64,000 bases of DNA, taken from the NCBI GenBank assembly GCA_000720535.1, contig JOAZ01000011.1, positions 241,983 to 305,982 of the forward strand. The letters are read 5' to 3'. The notes beneath the pieces were generated by a model. It had not been told where the DNA came from. It did no database searches and worked only from the letters and a program-made list of their open reading frames with translations. The DNA is from Streptomyces halstedii (GTDB lineage Bacteria; Actinomycetota; Actinomycetes; Streptomycetales; Streptomycetaceae). Both the position numbers and the translations under genes were made by a program. The stretch's first letter is position 1; every line of letters begins with the position of its first letter. Positions 37,914 through 44,626 of the stretch are shown here, in pieces.

Positions 37914-40319
37914 TCACCCGACCCTGATGCCGATGATGCAGGTGTCGTCGTCCGTGTCCGACTCGCTGTGGGTGAGCAGCCGGTCGAGGCGGCGTTCGAG
38001 GGTGGGGGCCGGTGCCGCCGCGGTGGCGAGGAGCTGGGTGAGGGAATCCTGGACGCTGGTGTCCCGGCGCTCGATGAGCCCGTCGGTGTACATCAGCAGG
38101 GTGTCGGACGCCTGGAGCTGGACCTCCTCCTCCTGGTACTCGGCCTCCGCGAGGGCGCCGAGCAGCATGCCCCGCAGCAGCGGCAGGGCGGTGGCCTCCT
38201 CGCCCCGTACGAGGACGGGCGGCAGGTGGCCGGCCCTGGCCCAGCGCAGGACGCGGGTCTCCGGGTCGAACAGACCGCAGACCGCCGTGGCGGTGACCTG
38301 TTCGGTCAGGTGGTGGGCCACGATGTTCAGCCAGGACAGCAGTTGGCCGGGGCCCGCTCCGGTGATGGCGAGGCCGCGCATGGCGTTGCGCAGCACGACC
38401 ATGCCGGTGGCGGCCTTGATGCCGTGGCCGGCGATGTCCCCGACGCAGAACAGGATCTGCCGAGAGGGCAGCACGACGGCGTCGTACCAGTCGCCGCCGA
38501 CCTGGGCCTCCGACTCGGCGGGGCGGTAGCGGACGGCGACGTCGAGGCCGGGCGCGTCCAGCGGGGGCTGGGTCGGCGGCATGATGGCGTGCTGGAGTTG
38601 CAGCGTCAGCCGGTTGCGTTCGGCGGACTCCTGTTCCGAATGGGCGAGTTGGTCGCGGGTGGCGGCCAGGGCGACCTCGGTCCAGTGCTGCGAGGAGATG
38701 TCCTGGTAGGCACCGCGGACCGCGAGCAGCCGGTCGTCCGCGTCGAGCACGGGTTCGGCGATGACCCGGATGTGGCGGGTCACTCCGTCGGGGCGCACCA
38801 GCCGGAAGGCCGTGGAGGCCGGCCGGCGGTGGTGGAGTACGGCGCGCAGGAAGCGGCCGATGGCCACGGCGTCGTCGGGGTGGGCGTGGTCGGTGAGGTC
38901 CTGGAGGGAGACCGGCGGCTCGGTGGCGGCCCGGCCGTACAGCGAGAAGAGCGGGCCGTTCCAGGTGATCCCGCCGGTGACCAGGTCCTCCTCGAAGCCT
39001 CCGATCCGGCCGAGCCGCTGCGCGTGCTGGAGCAGGCTGGCGAGCCGGGCGGCCTCGTCCTCGATGCGCCAGATCAGCAGGACGCTGTCGTGGTGGCGGG
39101 TGACGCTGAGGTCGGCGACGGACGAGAGGGGCACCTCCTCGACGAGGGCGGTCAGGGTCATCCGCCGGGCGCGGAAGGGTTCGCCGGTGGCGTAGACGCG
39201 TGCGGTCTTCTCGAAGAGTTCGCTGTCGCCCGCGGCCATGGGGTACGCCTCCAGCAGCAGGGCGCCGCCGACCGCGCCGCGCGGCCGGCCCGCCGGGTCC
39301 AGGAAGTGGCTGTTGACGTGCCGGATCCGGAAGTCGACAAGGGTTCCGTCGGCGTCGAGGTGCGGGGTGAGGACGAGGGCCGGGTCGTACAGCCCCTCGG
39401 ACAGGTCCACCAGCTCCGCGACGTCCGCCGCCTCCTCGCCGCCGTGCCGCGCCGCGCCGAGGGCGGGCAGGCTTTCGAGCGTGTGGGCGCACAGCTCGGC
39501 CAGCGCCTCGATCTGGCGGAGCACGGCCGGTGGCTGTTCGGGCAGGCGTTGCGGCCAGCAGATCTCCAGGACGCCGTACATCCTCCCGCCGGTACCGGCC
39601 GGGAGCGCGACCCGGCCGCCGTCCGGGGTCTGGCGACGGCCGATGGACGGGATACCGGCCTCGGTGAGGGTGTCGACCCGGACCATGCGCAGATCGGTGA
39701 GCGCGTGACGGGCGACGGTCGCCACACCGGGCGGCACATAGCGCCAGCGGTCCGCCTCGCCGGCGCTGAAACCGGCGTGGCCGCACAGGGTGAGCGAGGC
39801 GTCCGGACCGGCGGACCAAACGGCGACGGCCGTCGCGCCGAGGGGGGCGAGCGCGTGTTCCAGGAGGGATTCGGCGACCGCCTGGGTGTCGCTCGCGGCG
39901 AGCGCGGCGCACTCGGCGGTCCGCAGGCGTACGGCGACGGAGTTGCCGGCCGACCCGGCCGTGTCCTCGGGTCCGGCGTCGGCCCGCTCCACGAATTCGC
40001 CGGCCACCCGCGCCACCTGGTCACGGGCGGCCTGGTTGACGATGTCAGCCGCGAGTTCGAGCGGTGACATCCCCGCCTGGGCCGCGAGTTCGTTGAGCTG
40101 GCGGGCGGCCTGGGCCGGACCGCAGCGCAGCCGCTCGACCATGACACCCTTGGCCAGCTCGACCAGGGCTCGCCCGTCCGCCTCGGCCTGCGCCGCCCTG
40201 ACCTCGGCCCGCAGCCGTTTCACGGTGGCGGCCAGCCTGCCGACGGTGGACGACGAGGGGCCGGGCGCGGGGCGGGGCAGGTGGACGGCCCCGCCGTCGC
40301 CGACGGCTTCGCGGGTCAC
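37914..40319 (-). CDS. ANTAR-GAF-PAS-SpoIIE phosphatase, coupled to the poly-HAMP kinase
   Basis: An 801-residue soluble protein; GTG 40319 overlaps the kinase stop by GTGA. Order: ANTAR-like RNA-binding helices about 35-98 (DGRALVELAKGVMVERLRCGPAQAARQLNELAAQAGMSPLELAADIV), GAF about 130-285, PAS about 320-410, a second PAS about 440-555 (ITWNGPLFSLYGRAAT, HPDDAVAIGRFL, DGVTRHIRVIAEP), and a SpoIIE phosphatase domain about 580-801 (GGDWYDAVVL, VGDIAGHGIKAATGM, RAGHLPPVL, MYTDGLIERRD, DDDTCIIGIRV). Phosphatase and ANTAR functions in one chain would let one signal act on both an anti-sigma cascade and transcription antitermination. Confidence 0.88.
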   Translation of the reverse strand: MTREAVGDGGAVHLPRPAPGPSSSTVGRLAATVKRLRAEVRAAQAEADGRALVELAKGVMVERLRCGPAQAARQLNELAAQAGMSPLELAADIVNQAARDQVARVAGEFVERADAGPEDTAGSAGNSVAVRLRTAECAALAASDTQAVAESLLEHALAPLGATAVAVWSAGPDASLTLCGHAGFSAGEADRWRYVPPGVATVARHALTDLRMVRVDTLTEAGIPSIGRRQTPDGGRVALPAGTGGRMYGVLEICWPQRLPEQPPAVLRQIEALAELCAHTLESLPALGAARHGGEEAADVAELVDLSEGLYDPALVLTPHLDADGTLVDFRIRHVNSHFLDPAGRPRGAVGGALLLEAYPMAAGDSELFEKTARVYATGEPFRARRMTLTALVEEVPLSSVADLSVTRHHDSVLLIWRIEDEAARLASLLQHAQRLGRIGGFEEDLVTGGITWNGPLFSLYGRAATEPPVSLQDLTDHAHPDDAVAIGRFLRAVLHHRRPASTAFRLVRPDGVTRHIRVIAEPVLDADDRLLAVRGAYQDISSQHWTEVALAATRDQLAHSEQESAERNRLTLQLQHAIMPPTQPPLDAPGLDVAVRYRPAESEAQVGGDWYDAVVLPSRQILFCVGDIAGHGIKAATGMVVLRNAMRGLAITGAGPGQLLSWLNIVAHHLTEQVTATAVCGLFDPETRVLRWARAGHLPPVLVRGEEATALPLLRGMLLGALAEAEYQEEEVQLQASDTLLMYTDGLIERRDTSVQDSLTQLLATAAAPAPTLERRLDRLLTHSESDTDDDTCIIGIRVG

Positions 40320-43300: not shown

Positions 43301-44626
43301 CCGGGTCACCTCGTCCGCGAACGCGGAGAGCGTGTCCACCATGGTGTTGATGACCTCGGCCAGGGCCGCGATCTCGCCCTCCGCGTCCACGGTGATCTTC
43401 CGCGACAGGTCGCCGCGCGCCACGGCCGTGGCCACCTGGGCGATGGAGCGCACCTGCCCCGTCAGGTTGGACGCCATCACGTTGACGTTGTCGGTGAGGT
43501 CCTTCCACGTACCGGAGGCACCCCGGACGGTGGCCTGGCCGCCGAGCTTGCCCTCGGTGCCGACCTCGCGGGCCACGCGGGTGACCTCGTCGGCGAACGC
43601 GGACAGCTGGTCGACCATCGTGTTGATGGTCTCCTTCAGCTCCAGGATCTCGCCCCGCGCGGTGACGGCGATCTTCTGCGACAGGTCGCCCCGCGCCACG
43701 GCGGTCGCCACCTGGGCGATGGAGCGGACCTGCGCGGTGAGGTTGCCCGCCATGAAGTTCACGGAGTCGGTCAGGTCGCGCCAGGTGCCCGAGACACCCT
43801 TCACGTCGGCCTGCCCTCCGAGGATCCCCTCGGTGCCGACGTCCCGGGCCATACGGGTCACCTCGTCCGCGAAGGACGACAGTTGGTCGACCATCGTGTT
43901 GATGGTGTCCTTCAGCTCCAGGATCTCGCCCCGGGCGGTGACCGTGATCTTCTGCGACAGGTCGCCCTGTGCCACCGCGGTGGTGACCTGGGCGATGTTG
44001 CGGACCTGGTCGGTGAGGTTGCCTGCCATGGAGTTGACGGAGTCGGTCAGGTCGCGCCAGGTGCCGGACACACCCTTCACATCGGCCTGCCCTCCGAGAT
44101 TCCCCTCGGTGCCGACCTCGCGGGCGACCCGGGTCACCTCGTCCGCGAACGCGGACAACTGGTCGACCATCGTGTTGATGGTCTTCTTCAGTTCGAGGAT
44201 CTCGCCGCGCGCGTCGACGTCGATCTTCTGCGAGAGGTCGCCCCTGGCCACCGCCGTGGCCACGTGCGCGATGTCACGGACCTGGGTGGTGAGGTTGCCC
44301 GCCATGGCATTGACCGAGTCGGTCAGGTCGGCCCATGTCCCCGAGACGCCAGGCACGTCGGCCTGGCCTCCCAGAGTGCCTTCGGTGCCGACCTCGCGGG
44401 CCACCCGGGTCACCTCGGAGGTGAACAGGGAGAGCTGGTCGACCATGCCGTTGAACACGGTCGCGATCTCGCCGAGCAGGCCCTCCGCCTCGTCCGGCAG
44501 GCGCGTACCGAAGTCCCCGTCACGCACCGCCGTGAGCCCGGCCAGCAGTTGGCGTAGCTCCGGCTCCCCCACCTTGCCCGCCCCGCGTGTGCGGTGCGCC
44601 GGACGTTCAGCTGTCTTCTCCGCCAT
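40316..44626 (-). CDS. Soluble poly-HAMP hybrid histidine kinase with two receiver domains
   Basis: A 1436-residue protein from ATG 44626 (GAGGA 6 bases upstream; TTG 44632 also in frame). No membrane segment. Residues 37-588 are six 92-residue units, each holding two HAMP-like modules, plus a partial seventh to about 640 (about 13 HAMPs). Then GAF about 665-810, coiled coil about 815-865, HisKA with phospho-accepting H877 ([10 protein letters not shown]), HATPase about 975-1095 ([25 protein letters not shown]), a degenerate receiver about 1160-1280, and a canonical receiver about 1300-1425 ([26 protein letters not shown]). The layout resembles fungal group III (Nik1/Os-1) osmosensing kinases. 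The downstream phosphatase is its likely partner. Confidence 0.92.
42863..44518 (-). repeat. Six tandem 276-bp units encoding the HAMP array
   Basis: Each unit encodes 92 residues beginning GDL/GDF and containing [39 protein letters not shown]. Units 2-4 are closest to each other. The repeats are conserved enough at DNA level to recombine or to collapse in assembly. Confidence 0.9.

Follow-up and report, generated by a model that had tools for sequence, protein, structure and literature searches.

In Streptomyces coelicolor, the poly-HAMP kinase OsaA is encoded beside OsaC, a regulator of the sigma factor SigB (PMC9739842, PMC10117811; these and all other papers cited here are represented by excerpts). 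According to the excerpted account, the genes of OsaA, OsaB and OsaC are adjacent yet not transcriptionally coupled, and OsaC, described as a kinase-receiver hybrid, is needed to lower SigB activity after stress and binds SigB through its N-terminal kinase domain (PMC10117811). A further set of described genes comprises SCO7327, named OsaD (PMC9739823), a hybrid kinase without a membrane helix (PMC9739842); SCO7325, an RsbV that participates in SigB activation; and SCO7328, an RsbW homologue (PMC8346170) reported to phosphorylate BldG (PMC8346170, PMC9739842, PMC9739823 and PMC11472566, cited jointly). The layout of a soluble hybrid kinase with many HAMP modules is that of the group III kinases, bacterial members of which have been described (PMC7643160). 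Here we analyse a gene pair of Streptomyces halstedii, a poly-HAMP hybrid histidine kinase followed by an ANTAR-GAF-PAS-SpoIIE phosphatase, located in a stretch of 64,000 nucleotides (positions 241,983 to 305,982 of contig JOAZ01000011.1, assembly GCA_000720535.1; hereafter the window) of a 7.74 Mb genome. Among described systems, Osa comes closest to the pair, which itself forms a conserved unit.

Conservation of the kinase-phosphatase pair

When phosphatase residues 30-560 (counted from the GTG at 40358, as throughout) were used to search 199 genomes of the genus, strong orthologues, defined as matches above 400 bits, were found in 83. The matching kinase, searched with its C-terminal half and classed by hand (identity of at least 67% or coverage of the second receiver), was present in 84. 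Both genes co-occurred in 83 genomes, the phosphatase never occurred alone, and the kinase occurred alone only in G102, whose match lies 118 bases from a contig end. The kinase gene was located directly upstream of the phosphatase gene on the same strand in all 92 loci compared (85 from the 199-genome set, six from named Streptomyces, and the window; the genome sets may overlap), the distance from the kinase stop to the homologue of phosphatase residue 37 being 11-544 bp. A preliminary description, made from the window alone, had left conservation to a genome search; as the pair is a conserved unit, its restriction to this strain can be dismissed. Weaker phosphatase matches within the genus, with approximately 27-34% identity over most of the length, belong to separate families.

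Outside the genus, 394 genomes of the class were searched, and matches came mainly from two families, f17 and f18. The genes were co-directional and in the same order in all five loci fetched from f17, and divergent in 14 of the 15 fetched from f18 (two of these 15 come from one genome), the fifteenth being cut by a contig end. Among 15 weaker Streptomyces loci, the kinase was convergent in six (L196-L200 and L202). Pfam confirmed ANTAR and SpoIIE in one phosphatase of each kind, namely divergent L236, convergent L196 and kinase-free L203, and HAMP arrays were found in the kinases of L196 and L236. Linkage found in three orientations points to a functional connection that goes further than co-transcription. 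The weaker loci represent additional Streptomyces ANTAR-GAF-PAS-SpoIIE families, one convergent with a poly-HAMP kinase and one without a nearby kinase.

Domain architecture and the ANTAR-like region

The features of the pair are given below, all on the minus strand; kinase residues are counted from the TTG at 44632.

40316..44626, minus: poly-HAMP soluble hybrid histidine kinase, 1436 residues from the ATG
42713..44560, minus: HAMP array, residues ~25-640
42284..42694, minus: kinase GAF domain, residues 647-783 (PF13185, 65.6 bits)
41315..42025, minus: HisKA (870-937, H879 in the motif SHELRTP) and HATPase_c (985-1106)
40799..41185, minus: first receiver, degenerate, residues ~1150-1278, E1209 at the phospho-acceptor site; absent from the Pfam listing
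40364..40702, minus: second receiver, residues 1311-1423, D1360, T1390 and K1412 intact
40316..40319, minus: GTGA overlap of the kinase stop with a phosphatase start codon
37914..40358, minus: ANTAR-GAF-PAS-SpoIIE protein phosphatase, 814 residues from GTG 40358 or 801 from GTG 40319
39978..40247, minus: ANTAR-like domain, predicted helices 38-77, 81-95 and 99-127 (Pfam ANTAR 56-107)
39474..39893, minus: GAF-like domain, residues 156-295 (GAF_2, 22.6 bits, below the cut-off of 28.6)
38712..38969, minus: PAS_3 domain, residues 464-549, above the Pfam cut-off
37920..38465, minus: Pfam match of the SpoIIE/PP2C domain, residues 632-813, above the cut-off

The kinase reading frame ends at 40316 and has two candidate starts, TTG 44632 and ATG 44626. 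Pfam recognises in it seven HAMP and six HAMP_2 stretches, GAF, HisKA, HATPase_c and a single Response_reg. Six HAMP units begin at residues 73, 165, 257, 349, 441 and 533, a spacing of exactly 92 residues, and Tandem Repeats Finder reports a 276-bp period with 6.0 copies, 80% matches and 0% indels. The 13 Pfam stretches agree with the preliminary count of about 13 modules in six exact 92-residue units, the exactness being one of length and not of sequence (pairwise identity 0.62-0.88). Among 91 relatives of the kinase, 357 of 363 intervals between units are 92 residues long and SHELRTP is present in 87; the units recognised by motif number 0-7 (six in 39 loci, five in 27), and low counts may come from cut contigs or motif variants. 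No membrane helix was indicated, in accordance with the preliminary description, the top 19-residue Kyte-Doolittle mean being 1.85, in the GAF region (hydropathy only, a dedicated membrane predictor not having been used).

The kinase thus has repeated HAMP units of about 90 residues, which we take to be the repeat length of the fungal group III members, together with a soluble layout and a functional receiver, and the likeness to Nik1/Os-1 proposed earlier holds for its architecture. Compared by description only, it shares with the Nik1/Os-1-like kinases and the bacterial AskA, AskB and Amb07 the poly-HAMP N-terminus, the absence of a membrane segment and the kinase with receiver or receivers, and differs in the PP2C phosphatase partner, the degenerate first receiver and the presence of GAF. 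The many HAMPs, the absence of an indicated membrane segment and the HisKA-HATPase-REC order are equally those of an Osa-type kinase.

Two receivers had been assigned to the kinase. Pfam detects only the second, and a structure model of residues 1120-1438 (mean predicted local distance difference test, pLDDT, 79.9; predicted template modelling score, pTM, 0.48) contains two (beta-alpha)5 folds. Its best structural matches include 3luf and PleD, which we take to be tandem-receiver proteins. In the 55 sequences, of the 92 loci, that could be aligned over this region, the acceptor site of the first receiver is Glu in 42, Asp in nine and another residue in four, and the counterparts of D1360, T1390 and K1412 in the second are kept in all 55. 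Because the first receiver mostly carries Glu at the acceptor site and the second always Asp, the kinase is predicted to have one working receiver plus, in most relatives, one pseudo-receiver. The earlier assignment therefore stands for the intact second receiver and for the modelled fold of the first, but not for a first receiver with the acceptor Asp, which most relatives lack.

The preliminary reading of the phosphatase as ANTAR-like, GAF, PAS and SpoIIE domains in one chain was borne out by Pfam, GAF_2 being the match below cut-off and ANTAR scoring 39 bits against a cut-off of 27.3. Four aspartates of the SpoIIE domain (D641, D759, D804 and D805) and two just ahead of the Pfam match (D623 and D626), which we assume to be the metal-site aspartates of PP2C, are invariant in 24 aligned sequences. 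A SpoIIE domain with such aspartates is characteristic of the RsbU/RsbP-type PP2C phosphatases, and the nearest solved structure to the catalytic part, by both sequence and fold, is the RsbU domain of Rv1364c. Unlike these proteins, the phosphatase has an N-terminal ANTAR-like coiled coil as its input and no fusion to RsbW or RsbV. The GTGA overlap with the kinase stop was found where the preliminary description had placed it. Translational coupling was rejected as a family-wide rule: a candidate phosphatase start lies at -4 or -1 relative to the kinase end in just 26 of the 92 loci (any overlapping candidate start, 42 of 92), and coupling is therefore limited to part of the family. In locus L195 (G121:C139:79227-80790), the phosphatase is split across two reading frames.

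The N-terminal region of the phosphatase was modelled as a long helix followed by two shorter ones, so that both the profile match and the three-helix layout of an ANTAR domain are present; the domain arrangement in the model is unreliable because the whole-model pTM is 0.39. The phosphatase aligns without gaps, by hand count, with the REC-ANTAR protein of the same genome from the AK motif to the LA motif. In EutV, mutation of E160 or Y164 reduced RNA binding 60-fold and 55-fold, respectively, and mutation of M172 abolished it (PMC8934654); in NasR, W362, R340, R366 and N373 were essential (PMC7496416). The EutV contact positions were scored in 91 Streptomyces orthologues of the phosphatase, with the REC-ANTAR protein of the same genome as control. 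The equivalent of E160 is Pro in 90 orthologues and a gap in one; that of Y164 is Ala in 78, Ser, Thr or Asp in 12 and a gap in one; and that of M172 is Glu, Asp, Arg, Ala, Gly or Gln in 90 of the 91 and Met in none. R142 is kept as Arg in 90 of 91 and K149 as Lys in 87 of 91, and R175 is kept in nine. The control retains R142, K149, E160, Phe at position 164, M172 and R175. Loss of R168, N173 and R177 says little, since the control lacks these equivalents as does the phosphatase family. Other groups show different patterns: most sequences of the divergent f18 group have lost R142 and K149 (K149 is kept in 2 of 15), while eight of the 15 carry Arg at position 168, and two of the nine kinase-free Streptomyces sequences have Tyr at position 164.

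The phosphatase family thus shares the ANTAR fold signature with REC-ANTAR antiterminators of the EutV and PdtaR type, but its ANTAR domain is N-terminal, fused to PP2C and without a receiver in the same chain, and key RNA-contact residues needed by EutV are lost. RNA binding in the known ANTAR manner, and with it the antitermination link drawn in the preliminary description, is therefore unlikely, judging from these replacements, which affect every one of the 90 orthologues with a residue at the E160, Y164 and M172 positions. The simplest alternative, which we propose, is a docking or dimerisation role of the region. No description of an ANTAR-PP2C fusion was found in the open-licence literature.

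Gene neighbourhood and related loci

The gene directly downstream of the phosphatase (91 loci) carried STAS_2 in 25 cases, STAS in 24 and HATPase_c_2 in nine, and that directly upstream of the kinase (86 loci, one entry, L003, chosen by hand) carried HATPase_c_2 in 12, sigma-70 regions in 11 and STAS in eight. Profiles built from the neighbours assigned 66 of the 177 immediate-neighbour slots to STAS (33), RsbW-type (21) or sigma (12) proteins. At least one such gene adjoins the pair in 56 of 91 loci, and genes of these classes made up 2 of 330 in 20 arbitrary 20-kb regions of pair-carrying genomes. The neighbourhood in relatives thus supports the partner-switch sigma link suggested earlier.

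In Streptomyces violaceorubidus (L003) the gene order is RsbW-type ATPase, kinase, phosphatase, STAS protein and RsbRD-type protein, which matches the SCO7328-SCO7325 numbering. This synteny suggests that SCO7327 (OsaD) and SCO7326 are the S. coelicolor counterpart of the pair, and from its position SCO7326 should be the phosphatase orthologue; no mention of SCO7326 was found in the open-licence literature. Across the 92 loci, an L003-like STAS gene follows on the same strand in 27 and an RsbW-type gene precedes on the same strand in 19; unlike OsaD, the window pair is flanked by neither RsbV nor RsbW genes.

The osmoadaptation locus of S. coelicolor, OsaA-OsaB-OsaC (SCO5748, SCO5749 and SCO5747), was compared with the pair through a close relative (L251). 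There, a 1856-residue kinase with 10 HAMP and 8 HAMP_2 stretches, GAF, HisKA, HATPase and REC adjoins a receiver protein and is divergent from a HATPase_c_2-PAS-GAF-GAF-SpoIIE protein; from published descriptions these genes are read as OsaA, OsaB and OsaC. As in Osa, a soluble hybrid kinase with more than 10 HAMPs stands in the window beside a multidomain protein like the SigB regulator, and the kinase half is approximately 59-64% identical to OsaA-length kinases among the matches listed. The window kinase differs from OsaA in its smaller number of HAMPs and in its additional, degenerate receiver. The OsaC-like protein, unlike the phosphatase, is divergent from its kinase, carries HATPase_c_2 and has no ANTAR, and the two align significantly over the PP2C domain only (34% identity). 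It does not show the kinase and receiver architecture given for OsaC in the excerpted account (PMC10117811). With OsaA beside OsaC and OsaD (SCO7327) already published, the combination is less unknown as a system than the preliminary description supposed.

Poly-HAMP kinases occur repeatedly near SpoIIE phosphatases with differing input domains, in loci that were fetched for SpoIIE similarity and are thus a SpoIIE-biased sample and not a survey. In Actinoplanes xinjiangensis (L035), a MASE1-GAF-SpoIIE protein follows such a kinase. In one member of the Solirubrobacterales (L075), a REC-PAS-SpoIIE protein comes directly after a related kinase, and in another locus of this order (L052) the related kinase is followed by a CheR-type gene and then a REC-PAS-GAF-SpoIIE-HATPase protein.

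A SigB-type promoter of the kinase gene was sought within 400 bp upstream using GNNT-N14/16-GGGTAY, which we take as the consensus, and rejected: the motif occurred on the sense strand in 3 of 87 loci, equal to mononucleotide shuffles (2.9). On the opposite strand it was found in 28 of the 87 (including L131, L136, L172 and L002), approximately 140-276 bp upstream, where it is probably the promoter of the divergent neighbour.

Proposed role and alternative explanations

On balance, it is somewhat probable that the pair constitutes a cytosolic stress-signalling module feeding a partner-switching sigma circuit. Domain content, conserved catalytic residues, fixed pairing and frequent STAS, RsbW and sigma adjacency in relatives are computed; beyond them we propose a stress, a substrate, a sign of regulation and a direct contact between kinase receiver and phosphatase. 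The HAMP array of the soluble kinase would set kinase activity in response to a stress, which the analogy with OsaA suggests to be osmotic, and H879 would hand its phosphate on to D1360 in the last receiver of the same protein. The kinase output would then modulate the phosphatase by direct contact, most likely at its N-terminal coiled-coil ANTAR-like region. The natural substrate of this putative RsbU/RsbP-type PP2C would be an RsbV-like STAS anti-anti-sigma factor in its phosphorylated form, which, once dephosphorylated, would free a SigB-family sigma factor from an RsbW-type anti-sigma factor. By the OsaC precedent the sign may be the opposite, with the sigma factor reset instead of released.

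Several observations weigh against such a module. The phosphatase itself lacks a receiver; in nine of the 15 weaker Streptomyces ANTAR-PP2C loci (L201 and L203-L210) the fetched stretch contains no such kinase; and the SpoIIE neighbours of the kinase in L035 and L075 have no ANTAR. No STAS, RsbW-type or sigma gene neighbours the pair in 35 of 91 loci, and the loci are related by descent, so that their counts are not independent and the enrichment is not a probability. In the window, no STAS or sigma gene adjoins the pair, which is flanked by a TetR-like gene and a gene of a small DUF-type protein (both named by reading the sequence, without a profile scan). An RsbW-type (HATPase_c_2) ATPase is encoded at 48553-49086 (plus), approximately 4 kb away on the opposite strand, and the closest matches in this genome to the L003 STAS protein, at 25-35% identity, are located on other contigs. 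Twelve other loci contain relatives of this RsbW-type ATPase within the stretch that was fetched.

The rival explanations are not mutually exclusive. Kinase and phosphatase could be independent inputs to one stress regulon, linked for co-expression and without direct signalling, the kinase acting on another protein (e.g., an OsaB-like receiver protein) and the phosphatase answering its own GAF and PAS ligands. The missing receiver and the kinase-free ANTAR-PP2C relatives favour this possibility, as does the report that the adjacent OsaA, OsaB and OsaC genes are not transcriptionally coupled (PMC10117811), but strict co-occurrence and adjacency in three gene orientations speak against it, and we doubt it, though not strongly. 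An unlikely variant, which differs from the proposed module in sign and otherwise overlaps with it, makes the phosphatase a brake that restores the sigma baseline after stress, as proposed for OsaC. It would accord with the part of OsaC, beside a poly-HAMP kinase, in lowering SigB activity (PMC10117811) and with the SpoIIE domain in the OsaC-like protein of L251; however, OsaC is reported to bind SigB via its N-terminal kinase domain (PMC10117811), and the matching HATPase_c_2 is absent from the phosphatase. Finally, it is very improbable that the ANTAR domain binds RNA hexaloops and that the phosphatase doubles as an antiterminator. The Pfam match, the modelled helix layout, the kept R142 and K149 and the Arg at position 168 in part of f18 are outweighed by the replacements at E160, Y164 and M172, where the control keeps Glu, Phe and Met, in addition to R175. 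The antitermination candidate was rejected on these replacements; scanning the window against Rfam yielded no hit that reached the gathering score, and the pair region had a single match, at chance level, the leader not having been scanned for the ANTAR dual hairpin.

Returning to the signalling module, the pair is a conserved candidate input that connects a phosphatase of the RsbU type with a cytosolic kinase of the osmosensor type. Likely substrates of the phosphatase are named by the gene neighbourhood in relatives. A tentative extension, which we would not call probable, is that the ANTAR fold has turned from RNA-binding output to protein-protein input. The pair would then be a REC-ANTAR regulator split over two proteins, with the receiver at the kinase C-terminus and ANTAR at the partner's N-terminus, through which a His-Asp signal would gate a Ser/Thr phosphatase and a partner-switching sigma circuit, in three gene orientations and at least three actinobacterial families. 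If the domain does bind protein instead of RNA, other ANTAR-annotated proteins need rereading.

A catalase-like gene (33197-34855, plus) and a polyphosphate-kinase-2-like gene (47022-47972, minus), both read from translation, flank the pair region and suggest a stress-related neighbourhood. The window also encodes two further SpoIIE-type proteins similar to the phosphatase (9306-11744 and 18243-20930, minus), and 26 places in the whole genome, the query included, match it by SpoIIE-type similarity.

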